Assembly (NCBI GenBank): GCA_018268465.1
Contig: JAFDWN010000023.1
Coordinates: forward strand, 1 to 64,000
DNA from: Actinomycetota bacterium
Lineage (GTDB): Bacteria; Actinomycetota; Actinomycetes; Mycobacteriales; Mycobacteriaceae
Length of the DNA: 64,000 bases
Reading direction: 5' to 3'
Shown here: positions 16,981-47,102 of the stretch, one piece after another
Layout of the letters: each line of letters starts with the position of its first letter
Position numbering within the stretch: the first letter of the stretch is position 1
The notes under the pieces: generated by a model
What the model was told of the DNA's origin: nothing
What the model saw: only the letters and a program-made list of their open reading frames with translations
Databases searched by the model: none
Made by a program: the position numbers and the translations under genes

Positions 16981-16982
16981 AG

Positions 16983-21851: not shown

Positions 21852-21881
21852 TGCATGTCGTTTCTGTCGGGTCGCCGGCGG

Positions 21882-24953: not shown

Positions 24954-25094
24954 CACCGCACACATCCGGCCGTCGCCGCTTCGACCCGCTCCACAGTGCG
25001 GAGTGAAGTCACAGGAGCACCATCGACCCGAAGCACGACGAGAATCTATGGCAGCCATCACACCGGGAGCGGCTCCACCAAGTAGTAACTGTGT

Positions 25095-25121: not shown

Positions 25122-25143
25122 CTAGTGTGTCATCATTCACTAG
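25122..25143. promoter_or_regulatory. Putative TetR operator CTAGTG-N10-CACTAG
   Basis: Perfect 6-base arms with a 10-base spacer, 32 bases upstream of the tetR start and facing the yrbEA gene. Nearly the same site occurs at 36475-36496 and 37536-37557. Location beside a TetR gene suggests autoregulation plus control of the divergent mce operon. Confidence 0.75.
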
Positions 25144-25175
25144 CGGCATGCAGGAGGTGAAATATCGCGACGGAG

Positions 25176-25766
25176 ATGCTCGGGGGCTCACGGGCACCCC
25201 GAACCCGCGACCCCGAGCGCAAGAGCAGGATTCTCGCGGCGGCAGCGGACCTGGTCGCACGCAAGGGTTTTCACGCCGTCTCGATCGCCGAGATCGGCGC
25301 CGCGGCAGGTATCACGGGCTCAGGGGTCTATCGGCATTTCGACAGCAAGTCGGCCGTGTTGGTCGCGTTGTTCGACAAGGTCATCGACGACTTGCTGCGT
25401 GACGAACTGCAGATCATCGGCGACAACGCCGACCTGGCCAGGGCGCTGGACCAACTGATCGCCGGCCAGGTCGAATTCGTCGTCGCCGAGCGCGAATTGG
25501 CTCAGGTGTACTACCACGAGATCAACAATCTGCCCGAAGAGGACAGCCGCCGCTTACGGCGTAAGCAGCGGCTGTACCTCGAGGAGTGGGTCCATCTGAT
25601 CAGCGAGTTGCGGGACGATCTGACCGACACCGAGGCACGGGCAGTGGTGCATGCGGTGATCGGCGCGATCCAGTCTCCGCTATTTCACAACACCGGCTTG
25701 GCCGAGGACAGACTGCGCGTTCTGCTCACCGACGCCGCCCGAGCGATACTCGACCTGTCCGGATGA
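25176..25766 (+). CDS. TetR-family regulator of the mce/catabolic cluster
   Basis: A 196-residue TetR-type repressor: N-terminal helix-turn-helix (residues about 12-58, RILAAAADLVARKGFHAVSIAEIGAAAG followed by SGVYRHFDSKSAVL) and an all-helical ligand domain. It is divergent from yrbEA and preceded by the inverted repeat at 25122, which recurs at two more promoters of the cluster. The ATG at 25176 has GGAG directly abutting it, whereas a strong AGGAGG at 25152-25157 is spaced for an in-frame ATC at 25164, so the true start is uncertain. The ligand is likely an acyl-CoA from the pathway; inference only. Confidence 0.88.
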   Translation: MLGGSRAPRTRDPERKSRILAAAADLVARKGFHAVSIAEIGAAAGITGSGVYRHFDSKSAVLVALFDKVIDDLLRDELQIIGDNADLARALDQLIAGQVEFVVAERELAQVYYHEINNLPEEDSRRLRRKQRLYLEEWVHLISELRDDLTDTEARAVVHAVIGAIQSPLFHNTGLAEDRLRVLLTDAARAILDLSG

Positions 25767-26519
25767 GGGGTACACCACGGCGGGCAGCAACGCACCCGCC
25801 ATCCTGACCAGCGCCACCGCCAGACCGATGCTGACCAACGACGCCATCGCGGTGAGCGGCGCGAAGGGTTGTTCGAGATTGATCGCGATGATGGTGGGCC
25901 ATCCGGCCCCGAAGTTCGCCCCGAAGAACGTGCACGGGAAGATCACGAACAGTGCGAGCAGCTGCCACTGGCGGGTGACGTGTGCCCGCAGCAGCGCGGC
26001 GGCCAGTGCGAAGCAGATCACCTGTGCCGCTTCGAGAACCCCGATGACCAAGGGGTATTCGAAGATGCGGAACGTGTGCGGACCCCAATAGCTGTACGCC
26101 CCGGCGTTGATGGCGTAGATCTCGAACACCGCCGACATGGTCAGTTCGGCACCGGCGAGGATGAACAACTTGCGGACGGTGAGCGTGCCGCGCCCCATCT
26201 CGCGGGCGACGTAGAGGGCCGCACTTGCATAGAGCACGACGTATCCGCTGTGCGTCCAGATCGGTTGGGGAATACCGAAAGCCGTGAAGTGCGTCCACAT
26301 TCCGGCGGTGGAGTAGAAGTAGAGGTTCATTGCGACGTCGTAGAGCGGTTCGGCGAAAGCGCCGATCATGGCGGCCAGGACGATCAGTGGGTAGAAGACG
26401 GTACGCTCTCGTCTCCCCCATTGGACCGCCACGATCAGGATGACGGCGGTGAGTCCCCAACTTGCGTAGGTGAGAACCGCCTGCGTGGTGAGGTTGAGTT
26501 CATGGTCGATTGGTGGCAT
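25680..26519 (-). CDS. Hypothetical multi-pass membrane protein
   Basis: A 279-residue protein with about seven predicted membrane helices (for example VLTYASWGLTAVILIVAV, VFYPLIVLAAMIGAF, VVLYASAALYV, LFILAGAELTMSAVF, LVIGVLEAAQVICFALAAAL, LLALFVIFPCTFFG, MASLVSIGLAVALV). No family is recognised. Its 3' end converges on and overlaps tetR by 87 bases. It is divergent from the F420-type oxidoreductase gene at 26634. A transport or membrane-anchoring role for the catabolic system is possible but unproven. Confidence 0.75.
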   Translation of the reverse strand: MPPIDHELNLTTQAVLTYASWGLTAVILIVAVQWGRRERTVFYPLIVLAAMIGAFAEPLYDVAMNLYFYSTAGMWTHFTAFGIPQPIWTHSGYVVLYASAALYVAREMGRGTLTVRKLFILAGAELTMSAVFEIYAINAGAYSYWGPHTFRIFEYPLVIGVLEAAQVICFALAAALLRAHVTRQWQLLALFVIFPCTFFGANFGAGWPTIIAINLEQPFAPLTAMASLVSIGLAVALVRMAGALLPAVVYPSSGQVEYRSGGVGEQNAQSVLGQAGVVK

Positions 26520-26560
26520 AGGCGGACGTTATGACGGGCGTCACTGCGAAATCGGCCCCA

Positions 26561-26590
26561 CCCCGGGGGATATTGCTCCCCTGCAGGGGG
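26561..26590. promoter_or_regulatory. CCCCGGGG and CCCCTGCAGGGG palindromes in a divergent promoter
   Basis: Two inverted repeats lie side by side between the membrane protein gene (starts 26519, minus) and the oxidoreductase gene (starts 26634, plus): CCCCGGGG at 26561-26568 and CCCCTGCAGGGG at 26578-26589. The second has the same CCCCT/AGGGG arms as sites at 25096 and 28972. Confidence 0.55.
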
Positions 26591-26633
26591 TAATACGCCG
26601 GGGCCCGCACCGGGGCCGTGTCAGGCTGGCCGC

Positions 26634-27671
26634 GTGAAAGTGGATGTGAACATCGGCGGCGCGGTCGACGGGACCACCGGGGCGGATTTGACGGTGCTGG
26701 CGGCGCAGATCGTATCGGCGGAGACGTCGGGTTTCGACGGGGTGTGGTCGACCGAGGTGAATCGTGATCCCTTCCTGCCGCTGCTGCTGGCAGCCGACCG
26801 CTCCGATGCCCTGCAACTCGGAACCGCGGTGGCGATCGCGTTCGCGCGTAGCCCCATGATCACGGCGGCGGTGGCCAACGATCTGAACACGTTCAGCCGG
26901 GGCCGATTCGTGCTGGGACTCGGGTCGCAGATCCAAGCCCACATCGAACGCCGCTTCGGTATGCCGTGGTCGGCACCGGCAAGCCGTATGCGCGAGTATA
27001 TATCTGCACTGCAATCAATTTGGAGATGCTGGCAAACCGGCGAGAAACTCGACTTCGCCGGTGCGCACTACCGGCACACGTTGATGACTCCGATGTTCAG
27101 TCCGGGTCCTTCGCCGTTCGGGCGGCCGCGCGTCATGATCGCCGCGGTGGGCCCGAAAATGACCCGGGTGGCGGCCGAAGCGGCAGACGGGCTGCTCGTC
27201 CACGGGTTCACCACCGCACGCTACCTACGCGAAGTCACCGATCGGACGATCGAGTCGGGGCTGGCGGCCAGCGGCCGGACCCGCGACCAATTCACCACCT
27301 GTTACCCGGGTTTGATCGCCACCGGCCCCGACGAGCACGCCGTGGCCCGGGCAACGGACCGGGTGCGCCATCAGATCGCCTTCTACGGGGCCACCCCGGC
27401 GTACCGGGCGGTGCTGGATCTGCACGGCTGGAGCGACCTGCACACCGAACTGTACCGGCTGTCCAGGGCCGGGGACTGGGCGGCGATGCCGGGATTGATC
27501 GACGACGAGATCCTGCACGCCTTCGCGGTCGTCGGTGCGCCCCGCGAGGTCGGCGCCGAAATCGTGCGCCGGTTCGGCGGGCTCGTCGATCGATTCACGC
27601 TCTACACGCCCTATCCCCTCGACGAGGACGCCAGGGCTGCCGTCGTCGAGGGGATCCGGGGCGCGGTCTAA
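26634..27671 (+). CDS. F420-dependent luciferase-like (LLM) oxidoreductase
   Basis: A 345-residue TIM-barrel protein of the bacterial luciferase superfamily. The opening KVDVNIGG, the ATSIAIAFARSP-like strand (GTAVAIAFARSPM), GRFVLGLGSQIQAHIERRFGMPW and the PRVMIAAVGPKMTRVAAEAADGLLVHGF segment follow mycobacterial F420-dependent members. It probably oxidises or hydroxylates a pathway intermediate with F420 or FMN. The GTG start 26634 is used. Its stop overlaps the 3' end of the convergent acyl-CoA dehydrogenase by 4 bases. Confidence 0.85.
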   Translation: MKVDVNIGGAVDGTTGADLTVLAAQIVSAETSGFDGVWSTEVNRDPFLPLLLAADRSDALQLGTAVAIAFARSPMITAAVANDLNTFSRGRFVLGLGSQIQAHIERRFGMPWSAPASRMREYISALQSIWRCWQTGEKLDFAGAHYRHTLMTPMFSPGPSPFGRPRVMIAAVGPKMTRVAAEAADGLLVHGFTTARYLREVTDRTIESGLAASGRTRDQFTTCYPGLIATGPDEHAVARATDRVRHQIAFYGATPAYRAVLDLHGWSDLHTELYRLSRAGDWAAMPGLIDDEILHAFAVVGAPREVGAEIVRRFGGLVDRFTLYTPYPLDEDARAAVVEGIRGAV

Positions 27672-28906
27672 CTCTGCGCCGCAGCCGATTCCAGCAGGAA
27701 TTGGCCGATGTAGGTCCGCGTCTGGTCGGCGTTGAGCGGCTGGAACATCGATGCCGCGGAGTCGCGGTAGAGCCGTTCGAAGATGGTGCCCCTCCGGAAG
27801 GACGAACCGCCCACCATACTCATCGCGTGTCGAGACATGTGCATCACGTTGTCGGAGATGAAGGTCTTCGCCAGCCCCAGGTACGGGAACCGCAATTCGA
27901 CCGGCCAGGTCTTGTCCTTGCCGGCGATCAGATCCTCACAGGTCTGGTACAGCACGCGGCGGCTCAGCTCGACGCGTGACGCCATCTCGCCGATGCCGTC
28001 GATGATGTGTCCGACGTTCTTCACCGCGGTGTCCGAGGCGACGATGGCCCCGAACGTGGCGCCGAGGTGCTTCTTGGACAGTGTCTTGACGGTCTCCTCC
28101 AGGATCCGGTGCTGCATCCCCAGGTAGATGCTGGCGAACATCAGCGACGCCCATTCCAGGGTGCCGAACGCGCCCGCGCGCCACGGCGCGATGAATCCCT
28201 CCTCCGGCACGAAGTAACCGTCGAAAACGATGGTCTGGGTGCCCGTGGCATGCATACCCAAAGCATCCCAGGTCTTTTCGATGCGGATGCCCTCGCCGAC
28301 GCCGTTCTCGTCGACCGAGAAGTCACCGATGAACAGCTTCTCCGCGGCCACCCTGCCGTCGAATGTGTCCGGCAGGTTGCCGTCGGCGTCCGTTTCGGTG
28401 GCATTGGTGGTGATGATATCGGCGGCCTCACACAACGTGCCCCACGTCTTCTTCCCGTAGAGCCGCCACCCGCCGCCGGGCTGCGGCACCGCGGTCATAT
28501 CGGCCAGGCCCGAGAAGCCGGCCCGCTGCTCGGAGAAGGGGCCGAACATGAGGTCACCGTCGGCCACCCGGCCCAGCCAGTATTTGTTCTGCTCGTCGCT
28601 CATCAGGTTCCCGGCGATGCCGACCATGATGTAGTGCATGTTGTAGGCCAGGGTGATCGCCGAGTCGCCGCGAGACAGTTCGGTGACGACCTTGGACACC
28701 TGCAAGATGTTGCCTCCGGGCCCGCCGAACGCCGTGGGAACCGGTAATGCGCCCAGCCCAGTCTTCTTGAAGGCCTCGATGGAGGGTGTGGCGAAAGTGT
28801 TCTCGGCGTCGTACTTCGGACCGATTTCCCGGAAGTACCCCGAGAGCTCCTGCGCCTTGGCCAAATACGGCTCGAAGTCCTCGTCGGTCAAATCCTGTTC
28901 CAGCAT
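27668..28906 (-). CDS. Acyl-CoA dehydrogenase family protein
   Basis: A 412-residue flavoprotein of the acyl-CoA dehydrogenase fold: N-terminal helical domain, middle beta domain (MFGPFSEQRAGFSGLADMTAVPQPGGGWRLYGKKTWGTL) and C-terminal helical domain ending SFRRGTIFERLYRDSAAS. The ATG at 28904-28906 (MLEQDLTDEDF) follows AGGGAG at good spacing and is preferred to 28972. It is divergent from the NTF2-like pair. Whether it is a dehydrogenase or a flavin monooxygenase of the same fold cannot be decided. Confidence 0.87.
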   Translation of the reverse strand: MLEQDLTDEDFEPYLAKAQELSGYFREIGPKYDAENTFATPSIEAFKKTGLGALPVPTAFGGPGGNILQVSKVVTELSRGDSAITLAYNMHYIMVGIAGNLMSDEQNKYWLGRVADGDLMFGPFSEQRAGFSGLADMTAVPQPGGGWRLYGKKTWGTLCEAADIITTNATETDADGNLPDTFDGRVAAEKLFIGDFSVDENGVGEGIRIEKTWDALGMHATGTQTIVFDGYFVPEEGFIAPWRAGAFGTLEWASLMFASIYLGMQHRILEETVKTLSKKHLGATFGAIVASDTAVKNVGHIIDGIGEMASRVELSRRVLYQTCEDLIAGKDKTWPVELRFPYLGLAKTFISDNVMHMSRHAMSMVGGSSFRRGTIFERLYRDSAASMFQPLNADQTRTYIGQFLLESAAAQS

Positions 28907-28971
28907 GCGTTTCTCCCTGTCGGTCGTGCTGCGATGGGTACCGATGCTCGTCTGTTGCAGCGTCGCCCACA

Positions 28972-29026
28972 CCCCTCACAGGGGGGAACTCGGTCCAACT
29001 ACGGAGGAGCACCTACCCCCATGGGG
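28972..29026. promoter_or_regulatory. CCCCT-CAC-AGGGG and CCCCATGGGG palindromes in a divergent promoter
   Basis: Two inverted repeats in the 207-base gap between the acyl-CoA dehydrogenase (minus) and the NTF2-like gene (plus): CCCCT-N3-AGGGG at 28972-28984 and CCCCATGGGG at 29017-29026. Their arms match the palindromes in the other two divergent promoters of the cluster. Confidence 0.55.
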
Positions 29027-29113
29027 CGGTCGGTTTCCTCCCCGCGATAGTGGTCGGTAAAGCATCCGCGCAATAGCGTCGGCGTCACCGCCACCGACCA
29101 GCGAGGAGAGACC

Positions 29114-29566
29114 ATGAGTCATGCTTTTGCCGTCAAATGGCTGAAAGCCTTTCGAGAAAGCCCCGAAGCGGTTGTGGCGCTCTACGCCGATGACTTCCTG
29201 TTCGAGGATCCCCTCCTGGGCCAGTCGATCACCTCCAAAGCCGAACTGCTGCGGGTCTTCGCGCCCTATGCCAACGCCGACACCGAAAACGGCATCGGCA
29301 TCAACAACTTCCGCATCGACGAGGTGGTCGGCGACGAACGCGCGGCCATCTACCGGTGGACCTGGCACGCGCCCACCGCCGCGGCATTCGTCGGCGTCCC
29401 CACCAAGGGGAAGGTGCCCGGGACCCGCGGCATCACGTTTCACATCTACGACGAAGACGGTCGGATCAAGCGCGAGGAGAGCTTCTGGGACTGCGCCACC
29501 GCCGTCCGCGACCTCGGGCTGCCGGTCGAGCCGTCCTCGGTCACCACCTCGCCGGCCCTGGTCTGA
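29114..29566 (+). CDS. NTF2-like (SnoaL-type) protein 1
   Basis: A 150-residue cone-shaped NTF2-like protein: WLKAFRESPEAVVALYADDFLFEDPLLG, then GIGINNFRIDEVVGDERAAIYRWTWHAP and ITFHIYDEDGRIKREESFWD. Members include SnoaL cyclases, ketosteroid isomerases and dehydratases. A good ribosome site (GAGGAGAGACC) precedes the ATG. First gene of a plus-strand operon running to the flavin reductase at 34118. Function unknown. Confidence 0.85.
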   Translation: MSHAFAVKWLKAFRESPEAVVALYADDFLFEDPLLGQSITSKAELLRVFAPYANADTENGIGINNFRIDEVVGDERAAIYRWTWHAPTAAAFVGVPTKGKVPGTRGITFHIYDEDGRIKREESFWDCATAVRDLGLPVEPSSVTTSPALV

Positions 29567-29579
29567 AAGGAATCACGCG

Positions 29580-30080
29580 ATGAACTTCGCCATCGATCAC
29601 GCCGCTCGCTGGACGCGTGCCCTCACGTCGGACACCGACGCCGCCGTCGACCTCTACGCCGACGATCTGGTCTACGACGACCACGCCGACTCCGACCACG
29701 TACTCGACACCGCGCTCACCAAGGACGAGCTCGCACCGAGGCTGGCGCCGTTCGCCAACACCGATGCGGGAAACGGGGTGGGAATCCACCGGTTCACGGC
29801 GACCGAGGCCTTCGAACTGGCCGGAGTCAACGGCCAGATGGCCATCGTCATCCTCTGGGACTGGGCCGGTGAGGGTTTGGCCACCTACCGGGGTGTACCC
29901 ACCGACGGCAGGTCGCTGAGCACCCGCGGGATCACGTGGCATCAGCTCGATGCCAACGGCAAGATCGTGCGCGAGACCACCTACTGGAACGACACTCCGG
30001 TGCTGCAGGAGCTGGGCCTGCCGATCATCACCCCCGAGTACTGGGTCGAGGGTTTCGACCCCAGCCTGCTGGCGCGATGA
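29580..30080 (+). CDS. NTF2-like (SnoaL-type) protein 2
   Basis: A 166-residue paralogue of the preceding protein (AVDLYADDLVYDDHADSDH, AIVILWDWAGEG, STRGITWHQLDANGKIVRETTYWND). It starts 13 bases after the first copy and overlaps the acyl-CoA synthetase gene as ATGA. The tandem arrangement suggests a heterodimer or two successive steps on similar substrates; inference. Confidence 0.85.
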   Translation: MNFAIDHAARWTRALTSDTDAAVDLYADDLVYDDHADSDHVLDTALTKDELAPRLAPFANTDAGNGVGIHRFTATEAFELAGVNGQMAIVILWDWAGEGLATYRGVPTDGRSLSTRGITWHQLDANGKIVRETTYWNDTPVLQELGLPIITPEYWVEGFDPSLLAR

Positions 30081-31669
30081 CGGGCACCAGGGCGGGCATG
30101 TGGGGCACGTTGCCCGACGTTCTCGACCGCGCATGCGGCTATTACCCCGACAACACCGCAATTGTCGACGCCGATCGGTCGATCACTTACCGTGAGCTGC
30201 TCGCCTGGCGCAACCGAATCGCCCATGCGCTGCTGGAATCCGGCGTGCAACCTGGCGACAGGGTCGGGCTGCTGATGCCCAATTGCCTGGAGTTCATCCC
30301 GATTCAGCATGGAATCTGGGCTGCGGGGGCGGTGCTGGTGCAGATGCCGACCCGCGCCGGCGCGGCGGGCTTCCGGTCCAACCTCACCCAAAGCGACGCG
30401 ACAACGCTGATCTACCACGCCCAGTTCGAATCTGCCGTCGCCGGGATCTGCGCGGACCTGCCGAAACTGCGCAACGTCATCCGTCTCGGATCCGTCGAGA
30501 CGGCCGACGTGGACGCGCTGGACTTCGCCAAACTCGTCGACGGCCAGCCCGATACCCGCCCAGCTGTCACGATCGAAGAACACGACGAAGCCTACGTGCT
30601 GTTCACCTCCGGTAGCACCGGTGAGCCCAAGGGTGTGGTCAACTCCCACTTCACGTGGAGCTACTATTCGATCTCGGCGGGGCTGGAGATCGGGGACATC
30701 GGTTTCGGCGAGGTGTTCGCCCACGGGGCGCCGCTGACACATTTCACCCAGATATTCGTGATGCCGACGTTCGTCCGTGGCGGCACCAACGTGATGCTGC
30801 CCGGTCTGGACGTGTCGACGCTGCTGTCGAGCATCCAACGGCACCGGGTCACCGCAACCGCGGTCGTGCCGACCATCATCTACCTGCTACTCGACCACCC
30901 GCAACGCGACACCGCCGACCTGAGTTCGTTGCGGACGATGGTCTATGCCGGGGCGCCGATCACCCCTGAACGCCTCCGCCAGGCACTGGACGCGTTCGGC
31001 CCGATTTTCATCCAGACCTATGCGGGAACCGAACCCGGCTACATCTCGTGTCTGCGCAAGAACGAGCATCGTGTCGACGCGGACGACTGGACCGCGCGGC
31101 TGGCGTCGGCGGGCCGGCCGATGTTCCAGGTCGATGTCTCGATCCAAGACGACGAGGACCGCGAGCTGCCGGTCGGCGAGATCGGTGAGATCTGTTCGCG
31201 ACAGCTCGGTCAGATGCTCGGATATCTGGACCCGCAACGTAACTCCGAGACCCTGCGCGGGGGCTGGGTGCACACCGGTGATATCGGGCGCCTCGACGAG
31301 CACGGCTTCCTCTACATCGTCGACCGCAAGAAGGACATGGTGGTCACCGGCGGCTTCAACGTCTTCCCCCGCCAGGTCGAGGATGCACTGAGCACCCATG
31401 CGGCGGTCGCACGGTCGGCTGTCATCGGTGTCCCGCACGAGAAGTGGGGTGAGGCCGTGCTGGCGGTGGTAGTGGCTCGCGAGGGCGAAATCACGGGTCC
31501 GGCACTGGAAGCCGAGCTCATCGCGCACGTCAAGGAAGCCATGGGCAGCGTGTGCGCGCCCAAGTCGGTGCTTTTCTCCGACGACCTCCCGCTCAATCCG
31601 GCCGGCAAGGTCGACAAGAAATCCATCCGGCAGCCGTATTGGCGGGGCCGTGCACGCCAGATCGGCTGA
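30077..31669 (+). CDS. Acyl-CoA synthetase (FadD-type AMP-forming ligase)
   Basis: A 530-residue adenylate-forming enzyme that activates a carboxylic acid to its CoA thioester. Motifs: YVLFTSGSTGEPKG (P-loop), QTYAGTEPG (A5), WVHTGDIGRLDEHGFLYIVDRKKDMVVTGGFNVFPRQVE, and the catalytic Lys in NPAGKVDKK. ATGA overlap with the second NTF2-like gene. It probably primes the acid formed by the neighbouring aldehyde dehydrogenase. Confidence 0.92.
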   Translation: MTGTRAGMWGTLPDVLDRACGYYPDNTAIVDADRSITYRELLAWRNRIAHALLESGVQPGDRVGLLMPNCLEFIPIQHGIWAAGAVLVQMPTRAGAAGFRSNLTQSDATTLIYHAQFESAVAGICADLPKLRNVIRLGSVETADVDALDFAKLVDGQPDTRPAVTIEEHDEAYVLFTSGSTGEPKGVVNSHFTWSYYSISAGLEIGDIGFGEVFAHGAPLTHFTQIFVMPTFVRGGTNVMLPGLDVSTLLSSIQRHRVTATAVVPTIIYLLLDHPQRDTADLSSLRTMVYAGAPITPERLRQALDAFGPIFIQTYAGTEPGYISCLRKNEHRVDADDWTARLASAGRPMFQVDVSIQDDEDRELPVGEIGEICSRQLGQMLGYLDPQRNSETLRGGWVHTGDIGRLDEHGFLYIVDRKKDMVVTGGFNVFPRQVEDALSTHAAVARSAVIGVPHEKWGEAVLAVVVAREGEITGPALEAELIAHVKEAMGSVCAPKSVLFSDDLPLNPAGKVDKKSIRQPYWRGRARQIG

Positions 31670-31684
31670 GGTGAGGAGACACCT

Positions 31685-33184
31685 GTGATCAACCACTACA
31701 CCATGTACATCGACGGCAAGTGGATCGACAGCGGCGACGCCTACGAAATACGCAGTCCGGCAGACGAAGAACTCGTCGCCACCGTCGCCAAAGGTACCGT
31801 GGAGCACGTCGATGCGGCCGTGAACGCGGCCAAGGACGCCTTCGCGGAGGGTAGTTGGCGACGAACTCCGCCCGCCGAACGAGCGGCGCTCATCGAAACC
31901 GTCGCCGCGCGGCTCGCCGCCCGCTCCGACGAACTCGCTGCGCTGCAGGCGCGCGAGAACGGCGCGACGATTCGTATCACCGGGGCACTGCACGTCGGCT
32001 TGTCGGTCGCACAATTGCAGTACCTGGCGGCCGTCGCCCGCGAGTACGAGTGGGAAACCGCCGGACCCGCCATCGAGCCCGTGCCCGCCGACGGCCTGGT
32101 GGTGCGGGAGCCGATCGGCGTCGTCGCGGCGATCGTGCCGTGGAACATCCCACTGCTCACCACCGTGTGGAAGATCGGACCCGCGCTGGCGGCCGGCAAT
32201 TCCGTGGTACTCAAACCCGACGAGCACGCTCCGCTGCTGCCACTGGAGCTGGTCCGCGAATTCGACGCGGCCGGGCTGCCGCCGGGTGTGCTCAACCTGG
32301 TCACCGGGGACGGCGAACCGGTCGGTGCGCACCTTTCCGGTCACCCGGAGGTACGCAAGGTCGCCTTCACCGGGTCAACGGCCGTCGGCAAGAGCATCCT
32401 GCGACAGTCGGCGGATGCGGTCAGACGGGTGACCCTGGAGTTGGGGGGTAAGGGAGCCAACATCATCCTGGACTCGGCCGACCTGGACATGGCCGTGGAC
32501 GGCGCACTGTTCGCATGCATGGCCAACAACGGCGAGGCCTGCGAGGCCGGAACGCGGCTGCTGGTGCCGGCGAACCGGCGTGACGAGATCGTCGAGAAGC
32601 TGGTGGCCCGGGCGTCGACGCTACGACTCGGCAATCCACTCGACCCGACAACCCATGTCGGACCGATCATTTCGGCCACTCAACGCGACCGCATCCTGAG
32701 CTACTTCGAGATCGCCGCCGCCGAGGGCGCCAGGGTCGCGACCGGCGGGCGGCGCCCGTCGGGACCCGGATTCGAGAAGGGTTTCTGGATCGAACCCACC
32801 ATCTTCGTCGACGTCACCAGGGATATGCGGATCGCGCGTGAAGAGGTGTTTGGACCGGTCCTCGTGGTGCTGACCTACGACTCCATCGACGAGGCGGTCT
32901 CGATCGCCAATGACACCGACTATGGGCTGTCCGCCGGCGTGTGGGGCGACGACGCCCGGGCCATCGACGTCGCCCGCCGGCTGGACGCGGGAATGGTGTG
33001 GGTCAACAACTGGCACGTCATCCACCCCGCCTATCCGTTCGGCGGTTACAAGCAGAGCGGACTCGGCCGCGAGGGCGGTCCGCACGCCATCGACGAGTAT
33101 GTCGAGGAGAAGTTCATCGCGGTGGATCGGTCCGGAGGTATCGAGAACAAGGCCTTCGCCATCGTGATCGACCCGGCGACATGA
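31685..33184 (+). CDS. NAD(P)-dependent aldehyde dehydrogenase
   Basis: A 499-residue aldehyde dehydrogenase oxidising an aldehyde to the acid. The general base E252 lies in LELGGKGAN and the nucleophile C286 in NNGEACEAGTR; the cofactor motif FTGSTAVGK and the VPWNIPLL segment are intact. GTG start with GAGGAG upstream. It lies directly after the acyl-CoA synthetase, so aldehyde-acid-CoA conversion is encoded in order. Overlaps the next gene by ATGA. Confidence 0.93.
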   Translation: MINHYTMYIDGKWIDSGDAYEIRSPADEELVATVAKGTVEHVDAAVNAAKDAFAEGSWRRTPPAERAALIETVAARLAARSDELAALQARENGATIRITGALHVGLSVAQLQYLAAVAREYEWETAGPAIEPVPADGLVVREPIGVVAAIVPWNIPLLTTVWKIGPALAAGNSVVLKPDEHAPLLPLELVREFDAAGLPPGVLNLVTGDGEPVGAHLSGHPEVRKVAFTGSTAVGKSILRQSADAVRRVTLELGGKGANIILDSADLDMAVDGALFACMANNGEACEAGTRLLVPANRRDEIVEKLVARASTLRLGNPLDPTTHVGPIISATQRDRILSYFEIAAAEGARVATGGRRPSGPGFEKGFWIEPTIFVDVTRDMRIAREEVFGPVLVVLTYDSIDEAVSIANDTDYGLSAGVWGDDARAIDVARRLDAGMVWVNNWHVIHPAYPFGGYKQSGLGREGGPHAIDEYVEEKFIAVDRSGGIENKAFAIVIDPAT

Positions 33185-33630
33185 GCGCCCTGCCCGACGT
33201 CGATATCGCGACCAACGGACCTGTTCGCGTAGGGATCACGGGCGAAGACGGCTGGTGGCCCCATCAGCCCCGCGACGTGGTGCGGGTCCAGGCCCCCGAT
33301 CTGCGCCGCGTCGCCGCCGCGACCGCCGCGGTCCGCGAGGCACAGCCGCGCGTGTCGGTGCTCGTCGACATCTACGTCGCCATCGCCGGCGATGCGCACA
33401 TCGCCCGGACGGTGCTGGCGGCGACGGGTGGTGCGGGCGCGGCGCAGAGTCTGCTCTACGTCGGCACCCCAACCGGCCTCGCCGGACTGATCACCGACAT
33501 CCACGCGCTCGGCCTGGCCGACGGTGCGGTGCTGATCCCGCTGCTGCCCGGCGTCGGTGAGCTCATCGCCGGCGAGGTCATGCCGGCGTTGCGTTCGTTG
33601 GGCGCAGTCTGGGAGCGCAGGCCGGCATGA
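33181..33630 (+). CDS. Small luciferase-superfamily-like hypothetical protein
   Basis: A 149-residue protein coupled by ATGA on both sides. The end, [52 protein letters not shown], resembles the C-terminal part of luciferase-like monooxygenases, and the middle [14 protein letters not shown] resembles a preceding barrel strand. The N-terminal two thirds of that fold are absent. It may be a stand-alone partner of the flavin reductase or of the oxidoreductase at 26634. Not recognised by name. Confidence 0.7.
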
Positions 33631-34118
33631 CGATCACCAACGACGACTACCGCGCCGCCCTGCGGCGTCACCCCGCCGGAGTCACGATCATCACGCTCGC
33701 CTCACCCGCCGGACCGGTCGGGTTCACCGCGACGTCGCTGGCCTCGCTCTCGCTGAGTCCGCCACTGGTCTGCTTCAACATCACCCACACGTCCTCCAGC
33801 GTCGGCGCGCTCCGCCAAGCGAACTCGCTCGTCGTCCATCTGCTGGGAGAACACCAACTGGACCTGGCCCGCAGGTTCTCCCGTGACGCGTCGCAACGTT
33901 TCGCCGACCCGGCGTCGTGGTCGACGCTGGCCACCGGCGAGCCCGTACTGACCGGAACCCCGACGTGGTTGCGCGCCATCGATATCCAGTTGATCGAGGC
34001 CGGGGACTCCACCCTGGTGGTGGCCAGGGTCGCCGAGATCCACCGCAGTCCGGACAACCCGGCGCCGCTGCTCTACCACGACGGTCAGTTCACCGGCGCC
34101 AGTCGCCTCACCGGCTGA
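33627..34118 (+). CDS. Flavin reductase (HpaC-like)
   Basis: A 163-residue FMN-binding split-barrel protein: [40 protein letters not shown] and the late [10 protein letters not shown] motif. Such reductases supply reduced flavin to two-component monooxygenases. It ends the plus-strand operon that begins at 29114 and converges on the LuxR pair. A partner oxygenase would be the LLM protein or one of the acyl-CoA dehydrogenase-fold proteins nearby. Confidence 0.9.
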
Positions 34119-34142
34119 CGGACGACGGCGCCCGCACGATGC

Positions 34143-35315
34143 TCAGCGATCGGTGAGCGCCCAGGCGATCGCCTGGGCGCGGTTGACGGCGCCGTACTTG
34201 CGCAGGATGTGTTTGACGTGCGACTTCACCGTTCCCTCGGTGATCACGAGTCGGTCGGCGATCTCCTGATTGCTTGCCCCGGTCACCATGAGCGCGAAGA
34301 CCTCTGCCTCGCGCTCGGTCAGGTCCACCGCGCCGGGACCCGTACCGGTACCGCCGTCCCCGGTTTCGTCGAGGGATGCGGCCGGCCCGGCCGCTGATTC
34401 GCACAGGTCGTCGATGCGATCCACCGCCTCGAAGAACAGGTCACGCACGCTGTCACGCTGTTCGCGCAGGCGTTCCAGCAGCACCGTGCGTTCGTAGATG
34501 TGGCTGAACCCGTCGGCGAACGCCCAGAGCACATCGCGATCGGCGGTGTCGACACGCCGCGCCTCGGGATGGTGGTCGGTGTGCAGGAACCCGATCACCT
34601 CGTCACCGTGCACCAGCGGCGCGACCACGTAGGAGCGCGACTGACCGGCCTGAACGATCAGCGGCCGATAGACCGGGGCGTTGGAGGTGTCCTGAATGAG
34701 CGACGGTCGTCGCCGGGACAGCGCCTCGGCTTCCGGCGTCACATCCACCAGCGGAACGACTCTGTTGAACCAGTCGCTGAACCACGATCGGGTCTCCGCG
34801 TCCGATCGATCGATCAGGACCAGCGGCTTCCATCCTCTCGACTCCACCTTGGAGAGCACCGCGCGATGAAACCCGCAGCGCGACACCAGCTCTTCGCACG
34901 CCGATTCGAGCAGCGCGGCCGACGTCGGCATGCCGCGCAGCCGGCTCAGCCCGGCCGCGCACCCGGCCAGCCGCTGGCCCCGCATCGCGGTCTCGTGTAG
35001 GTACCAGTCCATCGCCAGCTGCTGCAGGTTCAACGCCAGGTCGCACAACCGTTGCGCGCCGCGGACGTCACCGGACTGGATGGTGCGCAGCCGGTCGATA
35101 CACGTGTGTGTCAACGCGGAGATCGCCTCGCCCGATTGCTGCGCGGAATCCCAGCCGATCTCGGGCAAGGCGGCCCCGCCGCCCATCACGGCTGCGGTCT
35201 GGGCGCGCAGCGCCCGCAGCCGCTCCAGCAGGTCGATCTCCCGAGTCCACCAATCGTCCCGGCACCGCGCGGCGGTCGTCGACCGGGACGCCTCACTGGC
35301 CATCGAGACACTCAT
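34143..35315 (-). CDS. LuxR-family transcriptional regulator with GAF-like domain (2)
   Basis: A 390-residue regulator: a helical N-terminal part, a GAF-like sensory region (about 130-290, SYVVAPLVHGDEVIGFLHTDHH) and a C-terminal LuxR helix-turn-helix (LTEREAEVFALMVTGASNQEIADRLVITEGTVKSHVKHILRKYG region). The ATG at 35313-35315 overlaps the stop of the upstream LuxR gene as ATGA, so it is preferred to 35357. Paralogue of that gene. Probable activator or repressor of the adjacent catabolic operons. Confidence 0.88.
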   Translation of the reverse strand: MSVSMASEASRSTTAARCRDDWWTREIDLLERLRALRAQTAAVMGGGAALPEIGWDSAQQSGEAISALTHTCIDRLRTIQSGDVRGAQRLCDLALNLQQLAMDWYLHETAMRGQRLAGCAAGLSRLRGMPTSAALLESACEELVSRCGFHRAVLSKVESRGWKPLVLIDRSDAETRSWFSDWFNRVVPLVDVTPEAEALSRRRPSLIQDTSNAPVYRPLIVQAGQSRSYVVAPLVHGDEVIGFLHTDHHPEARRVDTADRDVLWAFADGFSHIYERTVLLERLREQRDSVRDLFFEAVDRIDDLCESAAGPAASLDETGDGGTGTGPGAVDLTEREAEVFALMVTGASNQEIADRLVITEGTVKSHVKHILRKYGAVNRAQAIAWALTDR

Positions 35316-36388
35316 CGCGACCGCCGATTCTCCGCCTTGGACTCGCCGAGGTAACACGCGATGGCGGCGGCTCGATTGCCGGCGCCCAGCTTGTGCAGAA
35401 TGTGCTTGACGTGTGATTTGACGGTGCTCTCGGCGACCGTCAACCGGTCGGCCAGCTGCGAATTAGTGGCGCCGCTTGCCAGCAACGCCAGCACTTCGCG
35501 TTCGCGGGACGTCAGGCGCGAGAGCCGGGAGTGTTCGCGCGGCGGTTCGGCGAGTTCGCGGGTGGCGGCCGGCACGGGCTGTACCGCCGTGGCTCCGAAG
35601 CGCAGCGCGGGGGTTGCCGGCACCGCACCGAGCGACCGGACGGCGGCATCGCATGCTTGCGCGATCGTCTGCGCCTGCCGTGCCGCGCGTTCGGCGATGC
35701 CCGCCCGTTCGTAGATCAATCCGACGCCATCGGCGAACATGCGCAACAGATCCCGGTCGATCGCGGATAGCGCCCGCCCGTCGGCGGGGCGGTCGGCGTG
35801 GATGAGGGCGATCACCGACGCGTCGGCCACCACGGGAGCGACCACGTATTCCGTGGTTCCGGTGCGCTCCATCAATTGGCGGCACACCCGGCTTTCCCGA
35901 CGCGCGTCGTGAACCAGAGCCGGCAGCCGCCGGCGCACCACCTCGGCCTCGACCAGTGGCGATACCAGCGCGATGTCGAGTTGCTCGACGAGGCCGTCGA
36001 CGTGCAATGCGACCTGCCCGTCGGGCCTGGCGACATAGACGTCCGCGATGCGCCAGGCCGAACCGCGCACCCGCGAGAGGATCACCCGTTCGAAGAGCCC
36101 CGCCGCGCACAACTCCCGCGGGGCCAGATCGATCACCTGATCGGGATCACCCGCCTGCCGGACCCGGCCCAGCGCATCAACCACGTCGTTGAGCGATCGC
36201 CCGAAGCAGTCGTTGAACCGCTGGGCGGACGCGGACTGGGTGGTGACAGCAGCGGTGAGCGCGTCGGCCAGCTGAGCGGGGGTGAAGGTATCCGACGACA
36301 ATGCGGTGCCGATGACCACTCCTCCGGGACGCGAGAGCCGTGATGCGGATCCCGATTTACTAGATGTCACATCATCAGTGACGTGCAT
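35312..36388 (-). CDS. LuxR-family transcriptional regulator with GAF-like domain (1)
   Basis: A 358-residue regulator with a GAF-like domain (EYVVAPVVADASVIALIHADRPA) and C-terminal LuxR helix-turn-helix (LTSREREVLALLASGATNSQLADRLTVAESTVKSHVKHILHK segment). The ATG at 36386-36388 is used; a TTG at 36400 would also be in frame, and a start further in cannot be excluded because GTCAC-N7-GTGAC, a palindrome that looks regulatory, lies in the first codons (36366-36382). Coupled to its paralogue downstream by ATGA. Confidence 0.85.
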   Translation of the reverse strand: MHVTDDVTSSKSGSASRLSRPGGVVIGTALSSDTFTPAQLADALTAAVTTQSASAQRFNDCFGRSLNDVVDALGRVRQAGDPDQVIDLAPRELCAAGLFERVILSRVRGSAWRIADVYVARPDGQVALHVDGLVEQLDIALVSPLVEAEVVRRRLPALVHDARRESRVCRQLMERTGTTEYVVAPVVADASVIALIHADRPADGRALSAIDRDLLRMFADGVGLIYERAGIAERAARQAQTIAQACDAAVRSLGAVPATPALRFGATAVQPVPAATRELAEPPREHSRLSRLTSREREVLALLASGATNSQLADRLTVAESTVKSHVKHILHKLGAGNRAAAIACYLGESKAENRRSR

Positions 36389-36474
36389 CACCGCTGTCAA
36401 CCCACACCCAGAGCAGAGACTGGCAAGTCAGAGACCGCTCCGCGGCATCGTCCGTTGACACCACAGTGAGGGAG

Positions 36475-36496
36475 TTAGTTATTCTTGATTCACTAA
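36475..36496. promoter_or_regulatory. Putative TetR operator TTAGTT-N10-CACTAA
   Basis: Inverted repeat with one mismatch between the arms and the same 10-base spacing as the sites at 25122 and 37536; the right half (ATTCACTA) is identical to that beside tetR. It lies 17 bases upstream of the nitronate monooxygenase start. Confidence 0.72.
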
Positions 36497-36513
36497 TAGC
36501 CTCCGGAGGTCAC

Positions 36514-37437
36514 GTGTCCCGATCCGCTGTTTGGCCGCGTCGTCTGACGTTGCCCGCCATCGCCGCCCCGATGACCGCGGTGTCCGGTCCCGATCTGGTC
36601 ATCGCGGCCTGCCGGCGCGGCCTGATCGGCGCCTTTCCCACCCACAACGCCGCCGATCCCGCCGAACTAGACCGGTGGCTGCGGCGGATGAGCAGCGAAT
36701 CCACCCCCCAGAGCGCACCCCACGCCGCCAATCTGGTCGTCCATCGCAGCAACGCCCGGCTGTCCGCGGACCTGGAATGCGTGATCCGCGGCCGGGTCGA
36801 ACTGGTGATCACCAGCGTCGGATCGCCCGCGCCGGTGGTCGATCCGCTCCACGATGCGGGCTGCCGGGTCTTTGCCGACGTGGCCAGCATCGCGCATGCC
36901 CGCCGCGCGCTGGAGGCCGGAGTGGACGGCCTGGTTCTGCTCACCGCGGGCGCCGGCGGCCAGACGGGGTGGGCCAATCCGTTCGCGTTCGTTCGGGCCG
37001 TGCGTCAGGAGTACGACGGTCCCGTGGTGTTGGCGGGCGGCATCACCGACGGACGCTCGATCGTCGCCGCCGAGGCGCTCGGCGCGGACCTGGTTTACCT
37101 CGGGACGCGCTTCATCGCCACCCGGGAGAGCCTGGCCACGCCTGCCTACCGGGCCGCGCTCGTGGCGTCGTCGCTCGATGACGTCCGGCTCTCCGACCGG
37201 GTCGGCGGCATCCCGGCCAGCTTGCTCGCCTGCTGGCTCGACGGCGACCACGGCACGCCAGAAACCGGCGGCGGCTTCGCGCAGGAGCGGCTGCTCGACA
37301 ACCGCACCGCATGGAGCGCCGGCCACAGCGTCTCCGGGGTGACGACCGTGTCCTCGGTCGACGAACTGGTCGACGCCCTGCTCGACCAATACCGGCAGGC
37401 GCGCCGCGACATCTGCCAGCTAGTGAACGTGGGATAG
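36514..37437 (+). CDS. Nitronate monooxygenase / 2-nitropropane dioxygenase family protein
   Basis: A 307-residue FMN TIM-barrel protein. The opening LTLPAIAAPMTAVSGPDLVIAACRRGLIGAFP, the phosphate-loop VVLAGGITDGRSIVAAEALGADLVYLGTRFIAT and DGLVLLTAGAGGQTGW match the family. Some relatives are enoyl reductases (FabK) rather than nitronate oxidases, so the substrate is open. The GTG at 36514 has GGAGG at 36505-36509; a GTG at 36466 is rejected because it would place the operator inside the gene. Confidence 0.87.
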   Translation: MSRSAVWPRRLTLPAIAAPMTAVSGPDLVIAACRRGLIGAFPTHNAADPAELDRWLRRMSSESTPQSAPHAANLVVHRSNARLSADLECVIRGRVELVITSVGSPAPVVDPLHDAGCRVFADVASIAHARRALEAGVDGLVLLTAGAGGQTGWANPFAFVRAVRQEYDGPVVLAGGITDGRSIVAAEALGADLVYLGTRFIATRESLATPAYRAALVASSLDDVRLSDRVGGIPASLLACWLDGDHGTPETGGGFAQERLLDNRTAWSAGHSVSGVTTVSSVDELVDALLDQYRQARRDICQLVNVG

Positions 37438-37482
37438 CTGAGACGAGGATGGAATGCCCCTATCTCGTTCGGACAGTAGGCA

Positions 37483-37499
37483 TCACCTCATGGAGGTGA
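37483..37499. other. Inverted repeat TCACCTC-ATG-GAGGTGA
   Basis: Perfect 7-base arms with a 3-base loop, 45 bases after the nitronate monooxygenase stop and 37 bases before the next operator. It could be a weak terminator for the upstream gene or another protein binding site; no T-run follows. Confidence 0.4.
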
Positions 37500-37535
37500 A
37501 TATCCGCGCATTCCGCCGGACGCCAAAATTTCGCC

Positions 37536-37557
37536 TTAGTGTTGCATCGTTCACTAA
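37536..37557. promoter_or_regulatory. Putative TetR operator TTAGTG-N10-CACTAA
   Basis: Perfect inverted repeat, best of the three copies in the window, 39 bases before the carboxylase beta subunit start. Control of the whole carboxylase-hydratase-AtuA operon (37597-46448) by the TetR at 25176 is inferred. Confidence 0.75.
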
Positions 37558-37596
37558 TTTGCGGTCCCGCGAGGACCGCGAGTGCAGAGGATCCGC

Positions 37597-39195
37597 ATGT
37601 CCGTCCTGAATTCAGACGTCGACCGCGCCGCGCCGACGTACCTCGCCAACTACGAGGCTCAATCGGCGGCGGTTGCCGCCCTCGACGAACAGCTCGAACG
37701 GGTGGCCGCCGGCGGCGGCGCCCGCTACGTACAACGTCACCACGACCGCGGTCGGTTGCTGGCGCGCGAACGTATCGAACTGCTCGTCGACCGCGACGCG
37801 CCGTTCATGGAACTATCGGCGCTGGCCGCCTGGGGCACCGAGTTCAACGTCGGGGCCGCCATCGTGACCGGGATCGGAGTGGTCTCGGGAATCGAATGCG
37901 TGATCATCGCCCACGACCCCACCGTGCGCGGCGGCACCATGAACCCCTACACCCTGCGCAAGAACCTGCGTGCACTCGAGATCGCCCGGGTCAACCGGCT
38001 ACCGGTGATGTACCTCGTCGAGTCGGGGGGCGCCGACCTGCCCACACAATCCGAACTCTTCGTGCACGCCGGGCGCATCTTCCGCGACTTGACCGAACTG
38101 TCCGCGATGGGCATTCCCAGTGTGGCTCTGGTGTTCGGGAACTCGACGGCCGGCGGCGCCTACGTGCCCGGCATGTGCGACTACGCCGTGCTCGTCGACC
38201 ATCAGGCCAAGGTGTTCCTCGGTGGGCCGCCGCTGGTCAAGATGGCCACCGGTGAAGATGCCGACGACGAGGAACTCGGTGGCGCCGACATGCACACCAG
38301 GGTGTCGGGGCTGGGCGACTACTTCGCCGTCGACGAGGTCGACGCCATCCGCATCGGCCGCGACATCGCCGCGCACCTGAACTGGCGCAAACTCGGTCCG
38401 GGCCCGACTCATCCGGTCGACGAGCCGCTCTACGATCAGGACGAGCTCCTGGGCATCGCCTCCGGAGACACCCGGATTCCGTTCGACCCGCGTGAGGTGA
38501 TCGCGCGCGTCGTCGACGGCTCGCGATTCTCCGAGTACAAGCCGCGCTGGGGCACCAGCCTCGCGACCGGATGGGCGTCGATCCACGGCTTCCCGGTCGG
38601 CATCCTGGCCAATACCCGCGGTGTGCTGTTCAGCGAAGAGTCCAAGAAGGCAACCGAATTCATCCTGCTCGCCAACCAAACCGACACTCCGCTCATCTTC
38701 TTGCAGAACGTCACCGGGTTCATGGTCGGCACCGACTACGAGCAGGGCGGGATCATCAAGGACGGCGCCAAGATGATCAATGCCGTCACCAACAGCACGG
38801 TTCCGCACATCACCGTCAACATGGGGGGCTCGTTCGGTGCCGGCAACTACGGCATGTCCGGACGCGCGTACGACCCGCGGTTCATGTTCACCTGGGTCAA
38901 CGCGAAGCTCGCCGTGATGGGCGCCCAGCAATTGGCCGGCGTGTTGTCGATCGTGGGCAAGGCGGCCGCCCAGGCGGCCGGCCGGGAGTTCGACCACGAG
39001 GCCGACGCCCAGCGCACCGCCGACATCGAGGAACAGATCGAGCGGGAGTCGCACGCATTCTTCGTCTCCGCGCGCATCTACGACGACGGCGTGATCGACC
39101 CCCGCGACACCCGCTCGGTGCTGGGCATGTCCCTCTCTGCGGCCCATTCCAATGTCGTGGCGGGACGCCGCGGCTTCGGCGTCTTCAGGATGTGA
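37597..39195 (+). CDS. Acyl-CoA carboxylase beta subunit (methylcrotonyl/geranyl-CoA type)
   Basis: A 532-residue carboxyltransferase that moves CO2 from carboxybiotin to an acyl-CoA. The two crotonase-fold halves are visible: NSTAGGAYVPGMCDYAVLVDHQAKVFLGGPPLVK in the first and FGAGNYGMSGRAYDPRFMFTWVNAKLAVMG in the second. The type is that of methylcrotonyl-CoA and geranyl-CoA carboxylases. ATG at 37597 has AGAGGA upstream; a GTG at 37582 is an alternative. Followed within 7 bases by the alpha subunit. Confidence 0.92.
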   Translation: MSVLNSDVDRAAPTYLANYEAQSAAVAALDEQLERVAAGGGARYVQRHHDRGRLLARERIELLVDRDAPFMELSALAAWGTEFNVGAAIVTGIGVVSGIECVIIAHDPTVRGGTMNPYTLRKNLRALEIARVNRLPVMYLVESGGADLPTQSELFVHAGRIFRDLTELSAMGIPSVALVFGNSTAGGAYVPGMCDYAVLVDHQAKVFLGGPPLVKMATGEDADDEELGGADMHTRVSGLGDYFAVDEVDAIRIGRDIAAHLNWRKLGPGPTHPVDEPLYDQDELLGIASGDTRIPFDPREVIARVVDGSRFSEYKPRWGTSLATGWASIHGFPVGILANTRGVLFSEESKKATEFILLANQTDTPLIFLQNVTGFMVGTDYEQGGIIKDGAKMINAVTNSTVPHITVNMGGSFGAGNYGMSGRAYDPRFMFTWVNAKLAVMGAQQLAGVLSIVGKAAAQAAGREFDHEADAQRTADIEEQIERESHAFFVSARIYDDGVIDPRDTRSVLGMSLSAAHSNVVAGRRGFGVFRM

Positions 39196-39202
39196 GAACA
39201 CC

Positions 39203-41191: not shown

Positions 41192-41222
41192 GCAAGCCGC
41201 GAGAAGCGCAGCGGGATCGCGC

Positions 41223-47070: not shown

Positions 47071-47102
47071 GGTGGTCTCCATCGGGGCCTACTTGCAATA
47101 AC

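Follow-up and report, generated by a model that had tools for sequence, protein, structure and literature searches.

A TetR regulator and a conserved palindromic operator: a probable compact regulon of a nitronate monooxygenase gene and a carboxylase/AtuA operon, with a likely link to a neighbouring mce importer, in a mycobacterial genome

The Atu cluster of Pseudomonas carries the genes of AtuA, of a carboxylase pair of the geranyl-CoA carboxylase (GCC) type, of an acyl-CoA dehydrogenase and of a hydratase. Passages of PMC1995591 describe, for Mycobacterium, a KstR palindrome that overlaps the −10 region and a KstR regulon that includes mce4, and passages of PMC3511530 give the rule that a divergent TetR gene less than 200 bp from its neighbour usually controls this neighbour. 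Here we describe a related arrangement in a stretch of 64,000 nucleotides (the window; contig JAFDWN010000023.1 of assembly GCA_018268465.1) from a member of the Mycobacteriaceae, in which a tetR gene, a divergent mce operon starting with yrbEA, a gene of the nitronate monooxygenase family (NMO) and an operon encoding an acyl-CoA carboxylase and AtuA are accompanied by three palindromes, called operators 1 to 3 (Table 1). Among the matches listed in the open-licence literature no description of this TetR, of its operator or of its mce link was found, only mentions of KstR, BkaR, Mce3R and AtuR. In our reading, which we consider likely, TetR represses tetR, the NMO gene and the carboxylase/AtuA operon, probably the mce operon too, and is released by an acyl-CoA.

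The first-pass annotation of the window had described three palindromes with 6-bp arms, a 10-bp spacer and a common right-hand TTCACTA, and they were found exactly where it had placed them, operator 1 lying between tetR and yrbEA, as the coordinates bear out. The arms are present as described, but the conserved dyad reaches further inward and reads TTAGTGAAT-N4-ATTCACTAA. That operator 2 lies in a promoter held with a qualification: the mechanically called NMO reading frame opens with a GTG at 36466 and overlaps the site, but an in-frame GTG follows downstream at 36514. This GTG is preceded by a GGAGG box, and a TTGAC box lies upstream in most relatives. Downstream of operator 3 the first GTG of the AccD reading frame (37582) follows after 24 bp and an in-frame ATG (37597) after 39 bp. 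Operator 1 is probably the autoregulatory site of tetR, and operator 2 probably covers the −10 region of the NMO promoter.

In the whole genome (6,875,363 bases) the pattern YTAGTKN10CACTAR matches exactly at the three operator places only, as compared with 5 forward and 4 reverse matches of the mirrored control. The pattern TAGTGN8TTCACTA with at most one mismatch again finds only these three places; with two mismatches there are 22 forward and 31 reverse matches versus 131 and 135 for the control, which is noise beyond the three sites. The genome-wide scan that had been proposed together with the palindromes thus finds a motif that is not frequent at unrelated loci of this genome. When up to two mismatches are allowed, the degenerate pattern is only mildly enriched within the window (8 matches versus 3.59 expected; 8 were reached in 5 of 100 shuffles). 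The exact pattern was found in 6 of 61 relatives, namely in G000, in G018, where the 22-mer of operator 2 is identical, and in four others with a single site each, so that a single stray match in a genome is nothing out of the ordinary.

A close TetR ortholog (E 1e-60 or better) is carried by 10 of the 248 genomes of the genus. The search with NMO found 15 genomes at 1e-70 or better, 10 of them with E below 1e-120, and these are the identical 10 genomes; both lines were set after a gap in the lists had become visible. The other five genomes have NMO homologs of 52–57% identity only, and at the loci of these homologs or of the second copy in G018 (L134–L139) no motif was found, the best position weight matrix (PWM) score being 8.1. 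In all 10 genomes the region carries TetR, NMO and AccD, the TetR of the window sharing 77–83% identity with its counterparts in M. aurum, M. rhodesiae and M. pyrenivorans. Scored against TTAGTGAA-N6-TTCACTAA, a site of at least 12 of 16 lies upstream of NMO in 10 of 10 genomes and upstream of AccD in 10 of 10, and one with at least 11 of 16 lies upstream of tetR in seven. The information content of the arms is 1.79 and 1.80 bits per column versus 0.42–0.77 in the two flanks of 60 bp each.

On inspection by eye, 8 of the 10 genomes have a TTGAC box whose end is 12–14 bp upstream of the NMO operator (2 bp in G067, none in G110), which puts the operator roughly at the expected place of the −10 box. 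In 8 of 10 genomes the left half of this operator shows the same deviation from the palindrome (TTAGTTAT or ATAGTTAT), which may reflect the −10 sequence. In G201 and G165 two sites lie upstream of tetR, 55 bp apart (scores 29.9 and about 16.4), an arrangement that suggests paired operators about five helical turns from each other.

A weak fourth palindrome, CTAGTGAACGTGGGATAGCTGA (37420–37441, score 13.2), is found 116 bp upstream of operator 3 over the NMO stop codon, and weak counterparts lie 84–119 bp upstream of the AccD operator in G164, G091, G018, G067 and G110. We did not retain it as a real operator, as coding conservation at the end of NMO can account for the match.

The motif was then sought beyond the close relatives. 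From 80 TetR relatives fetched, 51 loci (L059 to L109, 46–76% identity) form a distant set that is mostly non-mycobacterial, with orthologs in Saccharopolyspora, Prauserella, Amycolatopsis, Klenkia, Pseudonocardia and others; some loci are mycobacterial and have a second TetR type of 51–54% identity. Homologs of AccD, AccA or AtuA are near TetR in 43 of the 51 loci; in the same stretches around TetR mce homologs were found in 0 of 51 and NMO homologs in 0 of 51. A PWM trained on 27 mycobacterial sites only was run on 43 non-redundant distant loci (8 duplicates removed; related loci such as L094/L095/L097 and L100/L101 kept; L110–L118 outside the motif counts). A promoter match was one within 300 bp of the start of a homolog, and the control consisted of 60 column shuffles, near-identity shuffles included. 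At threshold 11 there were 36 promoter and 17 other matches (shuffle means 2.0 and 3.4, maxima 38 and 11), at threshold 13 there were 32 and 12 (means 0.6 and 1.1, maxima 15 and 9), and at threshold 9 there were 38 and 19 (means 2.2 and 6.6, maxima 26 and 31). The 36 promoter sites are spread over 24 of the 43 loci and lie upstream of AccD, FadE, FadD, AtuA, the TIGR03084 gene and tetR.

Seven distant loci from different mycobacterial records (L075, L076, L077, L078, L081, L083 and L090) contain near-identical AtuA clusters of 10–20 kb with a 51%-identical TetR (L077 is 99.995% identical to L075 over 20,570 bp, L076 99.86%, the other pieces 94.5–100%). This may be due to a recent horizontal spread of a catabolic island or to contamination in some assemblies.

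The TetR of the window is a single 196-amino-acid protein (PF00440 TetR_N, 1.4e-14). With 157.3 bits against the SACE_7040 model NF050111 (cutoff 250) and 24.6 bits against the KstR model NF033703 (cutoff 280) it is neither a SACE_7040 nor a KstR equivalog by the model cutoffs; the passages on SACE_7040 that turned up concern morphology. In the recognition helix Y52, R53, H54 and K58 are kept in 51 of 51 distant relatives, and the 25 paralogs (34–41% identity) differ at several positions neighbouring these four. At position 49 all 25 paralogs have Pro. All 20 close relatives have Ser there, as do 31 of the 51 distant ones; another 16 of these 51 have Pro.

In the start column of tetR (25153–25178 of the window, aligned with L039, L041–L052 and L054–L058) an in-frame AUH codon follows a GGAGG box: ATC in the window and in 14 of 18 relatives, ATA in L042, ATT in L049 and ATG in L043, with a frame misfit in L056. 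An in-frame GTG overlaps the GGAGG box in 10 of 18, and in the window an ATG lies four codons downstream. The conserved start of tetR may be the AUC codon at 25164, and with such a weak start the repressor would stay scarce.

Sites at NMO and AccD in all 10 genomes, the matched presence of TetR and NMO among 248 genomes and the site together with TetR across the Actinobacteria support a compact regulon. We therefore regard the TetR-NMO-carboxylase/AtuA regulon as well supported at the level of sequence, and one TetR very probably controls the genes marked by the three operators. The first-pass annotation had tied the mce operon to the same TetR as NMO and the carboxylase/AtuA operon; the NMO and AccD parts of this proposal stand, but the tie of mce through an operator is not yet supported.

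Table 1. Features of the window that belong to, or lie next to, the proposed regulon
Feature	Position	Strand	Remarks
mce core after yrbEA	15508..24175	−	yrbEB 23324-24175 (MlaE) and six Mce proteins (MlaD and Mce4_CUP1)
Six Mce proteins	21882-23327, 20823-21851, 19513-20838, 18116-19516, 16983-18119, 15508-17103	−	
yrbEA permease, first mce gene	24186..24965	−	reading frame opens at 25061, probable ATG 24965 or 24953; PF02405 MlaE 1.4e-52
Operator 1, CTAGTGTGTCATCATTCACTAG	25122..25143		between divergent yrbEA and tetR; PWM 26.4 (training-set member)
TetR regulator	25164..25766	+	ATG reading frame from 25176; Pfam TetR_N and TetR_C_24
Operator 2, TTAGTTATTCTTGATTCACTAA	36475..36496		ahead of NMO gene; PWM 37.1 (training-set member)
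NMO-family flavin mononucleotide enzyme (nitronate monooxygenase / FabK-like)	36514..37437	+	PF03060; TIGR03151 below cutoff; start approximate
Second dyad, TCACCTCATGGAGGTGA	37483..37499		perfect; 53 bp upstream of operator 3
Operator 3, TTAGTGTTGCATCGTTCACTAA	37536..37557		ahead of AccD; PWM 28.3 (training-set member)
AccD, carboxyltransferase beta subunit, lineage of methylcrotonyl-CoA carboxylase (MCC) and GCC	37582..39195	+	open pocket, Ala replacing MCC Phe191
AccA, biotin carboxylase and biotin carrier alpha subunit	39152..41191	+	MCC-type BT domain
Enoyl-CoA hydratase family	41172..41981	+	AtuE-like by position
TIGR03084 family metal-binding protein (MDMPI/DinB fold)	41966..42775	+	
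AtuA with AtuA ferredoxin-like domain	42577..44532	+	PF07287 1.2e-165, PF23544; start over-extended
Acyl-CoA dehydrogenase	44274..45668	+	AtuD-like by position; start over-extended
Second enoyl-CoA hydratase, last of run	45675..46448	+	

In the mechanism that we propose, a dimer of TetR (25176–25766) would bind operators of the TTAGTGAAT-N4-ATTCACTAA type. In the absence of inducer it would repress its own promoter, the NMO promoter, where the operator would cover the probable −10 region downstream of a TTGACA box, and the operon for AccD, AccA, an enoyl-CoA hydratase, the TIGR03084 protein, AtuA, FadE and a second hydratase. When substrate is present, an intermediate of the pathway, most likely an acyl-CoA, would bind to the C-terminal domain of TetR and the DNA would be released. 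The operon would encode an Atu-like route that takes a beta-methyl acyl-CoA with an alpha,beta double bond, larger than methylcrotonyl-CoA, through carboxylation and hydration to cleavage. The mce operon, divergent from tetR and probably repressed from operator 1 in this genome, would supply the lipid substrate.

Several results weigh against this mechanism. TetR relatives of 49–53% identity in G020, G024 and G034 fall below the 1e-60 line and thus outside the 10 genomes. One of the 60 column shuffles gave 38 promoter matches at threshold 11, above the observed 36, and no promoter site at this threshold was found in 19 of the 43 distant loci. As the distant loci were chosen by TetR similarity, they cannot alone exclude that another factor uses the motif. 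On the side of the substrate, AccD scores 559 bits with MCC and 456 bits with GCC, and its sequence as a whole is closer to MCC. The further points concern the mce operon.

The mce operon is complete, with two MlaE and six MlaD/Mce4_CUP1 proteins above the Pfam cutoffs. YrbEA gives 294 bits with YrbE1A of the solved Mce1 complex and stays below the TIGR00056 cutoff (121.9 of 212.2); the first Mce protein belongs to TIGR00996 and gives 229 bits with the Mce1 chain. From the probable yrbEA start (24965) to the probable tetR start (25164) there are about 198 bp, and by our own count operator 1 ends 20 bp before the latter and is 156 bp from the former. Where mce adjoins tetR, the best PWM scores on the tetR side are 26.4 (G000), 29.9 (G201), 29.9 (G165), 17.4 (G110), 12.0 (L055), 11.4 (L056), 10.7 (L049), 9.1 (G164), 7.7 (L042) and 0.9 (G063); where it does not, they are 20.3 (G091), 20.2 (L058), 16.9 (L048), 16.2 (L045), 16.0 (L041), 15.5 (L039), 14.1 (G200), 12.7 (G018), 12.5 (L050), 9.9 (G067) and −8.2 (L046). 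Several of these sites belong to the training set; L043 and L044 were omitted as repeats of G091 and G200, and the Nocardia loci L040 (13.3) and L053 (9.0) stand outside both lists.

The tetR-side site is thus equally frequent without an adjacent mce operon, is absent in G063 and weak in L042 and G164 despite adjacent mce, and is not conserved along with mce; mce adjacency does not strengthen it. Among 30 yrbEA loci only the tetR-adjacent ones of G000, G201, G165 and G110 have a site above 12; non-adjacent yrbEA loci among these 30 show no operator (best 9.4), including eight mce operons at about 8.7–71 kb from tetR. Since the site, as in L058 and G091, occurs also where mce is absent, autoregulation of tetR alone accounts for it, and a TetR regulon without mce, in which the importer is a linked neighbour under its own control, has in our view a chance only slightly below even. 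Operator 1 is also far nearer to the start of tetR than to that of yrbEA. Against such a regulon speaks that the gap between the two genes falls inside the 200-bp rule for divergent TetR targets given in passages of PMC3511530, and that operator 1 lies in the shared divergent region and is among the strong tetR-side sites, like those of G201 and G165. It is also at odds with the physical linkage of this mce lineage to tetR. In a tree of 29 yrbEA loci, the best of a longer list (L207 was dropped as a second copy of L206), the yrbEA of the window falls with the tetR-linked copies, which form a group of three rows (window, G165 and G201) and one of 17. Eight of these 20 adjoin tetR, eight are on the same contig at 8.7–71 kb and four are on other contigs, so that 16 of 20 are on the tetR contig. 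Six of the nine remaining rows are on contigs other than that of tetR, and three are megabases away. The two linked groups form a single one only if the tree is rooted within the nine remaining rows, and with 81/71 support for the branch leading there the grouping is weakly supported. Among the yrbEA matches listed, each of 20 genomes has 3 to 15 with an E value of 1e-80 or better (G091 and G274 are apparently one assembly).

Given the gene neighbourhood and the short intergenic region that tetR and yrbEA share here, the same TetR switch likely controls the mce genes, and the importer seems to travel with the pathway.

The next candidates for the owner of the palindromes are the two GAF-LuxR regulators encoded at 34143–35357 and 35312–36400. 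LuxR/GerE proteins bind dyads too, and the two genes adjoin operator 2 in all 10 mycobacterial regions (LuxR1 lies beyond the stretch in G201 and G165). Within the stretches around TetR a LuxR1/LuxR2 homolog is found, however, in only 1 of 51 distant loci (L060), strong sites occur without LuxR in L059, L064, L066, L068, L069, L074, L079, L096 and L109, and a site is present at the tetR promoter itself, which makes ownership by these regulators improbable. They may use another element instead, the second dyad of Table 1. In 6 of the 10 genomes such a dyad occurs in the strict form TCACC-N6/7-GGTG at a distance of 53–54 bp upstream from the AccD operator, and three more have looser forms; an activator might bind there, perhaps one of the GAF-LuxR proteins.

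Very improbable is that a second TetR (46501–47082, minus strand), which is encoded just downstream of the carboxylase operon, owns the sites and regulates this operon: among the 10 regions it was seen only in the window (the stretches of G018 and G067 end at the operon end, where it might be overlooked), whereas the sites are in all 10; it belongs to a different C-terminal family, TetR_C_43, and its promoter has no match with up to two mismatches. Like the LuxR pair, it is a poor candidate. Chance palindromes in AT-rich promoter DNA have a next to negligible probability, for although base composition predicts about one exact match per genome and four relatives have one stray match each, all three genome-wide matches lie within 12.4 kb at related promoters, and the persistence of the sites while their flanks diverged speaks against chance.

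What the pathway that TetR probably governs may degrade can be read in part from AccD. Compared with MCC, passages of PMC4673880 state, geranyl-CoA carboxylase has Gly in place of Phe191 and lacks a three-residue insertion just before it. In AccD of the window the insertion is absent as in GCC, and the residue in the Phe191 column, as located by alignments, is Ala, not Gly. This Ala is found in 39 of 41 rows, the window among them, with no call in L111 and L118 and some rows being near-duplicates. The pocket would thus be open and GCC-like, favouring a terpenoid or long branched acid, and together with AtuA it suggests a CoA ester that is larger than methylcrotonyl-CoA and has a beta-methyl group and an alpha,beta double bond. 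The substrate class proposed in the first-pass annotation, an acid or terpenoid with a CoA ester that undergoes carboxylation, agrees with the branched or terpenoid acid that we infer from this comparison with GCC. Uptake of isoprenoid acids by Mce proteins is proposed for rubber degraders in passages of PMC8538451, which by analogy makes an isoprenoid cargo reasonable here.

Beside tetR, in many mycobacteria, lies a block (26634–36400) that encodes an F420-type LLM oxidoreductase (LuxMO; TIGR03617), an acyl-CoA dehydrogenase-like protein, two SnoaL/ketosteroid-isomerase-like proteins, FadD, an aldehyde dehydrogenase, a flavin reductase and the two GAF-LuxR regulators. Its genes fit the oxidation of a precursor to the acid and the activation of the acid. 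In the 10 regions no site of at least 9 was found near the genes from LuxMO to the flavin reductase, with one weaker site before LuxMO in L048 (13.2); the block is therefore probably outside the regulon.

The findings matter because many mce operons of environmental mycobacteria have no known cargo, and linking one lineage to a defined pathway, through its neighbourhood and perhaps also a common repressor, would give a short list of acids that can be tested. With the operator one can search directly for the regulon, and assay for the inducer, of an Atu-like pathway in Actinobacteria.

Among the described systems, the Pseudomonas Atu cluster with AtuR resembles the locus in having AtuA, a GCC-like carboxylase pair, an acyl-CoA dehydrogenase, a hydratase, a TetR repressor and inverted-repeat operators; AtuR is mentioned in passages of PMC3511530, and GCC is treated in passages of PMC4673880. 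The cluster differs in operon layout, and the locus has in addition the TIGR03084 protein, NMO and the mce neighbour, and in AccD an Ala where GCC has Gly. With BkaR/Fad35R and accD1-accA1, as described in passages of PMC3920632, the locus shares an autoregulated TetR repressor of an acyl-CoA carboxylase/beta-oxidation operon, but the BkaR operator given there is GTTA-N-T-N4-A-N-TAAC, and the solved AccD1, which retains the insertion and the Phe, is a different carboxylase. Mce3R, a sequence relative (97 bits), is likewise a TetR-like repressor beside an mce operon; according to passages of PMC11667970, however, it consists of two fused TetR units and has a 25-bp site that is not palindromic, whereas the locus has a single TetR and palindromes.

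Closest in kind is KstR-mce4 of Mycobacterium, as portrayed in the passages on KstR: a single TetR-family repressor with a palindromic operator over the −10 region, and catabolic CoA-ester genes together with mce, which here are joined by neighbourhood. KstR has the operator TnnAACnnGTTnnA and a large lipid and sterol regulon, whereas the TetR of the window has the TTAGTGAAT-N4-ATTCACTAA type, three sites and a carboxylase/AtuA operon. By analogy the system would work like KstR-mce4 and be of the same known kind. Tentatively, and with rather less than even confidence, we suggest that it is a terpenoid analogue of the cholesterol system KstR-mce4, in which one TetR would co-repress a GCC-like Atu pathway and a dedicated Mce importer whose cargo is an isoprenoid acid or a long acid with beta-methyl branches, the catabolic regulon being ancient in the Actinobacteria and the importer having been captured in mycobacteria.

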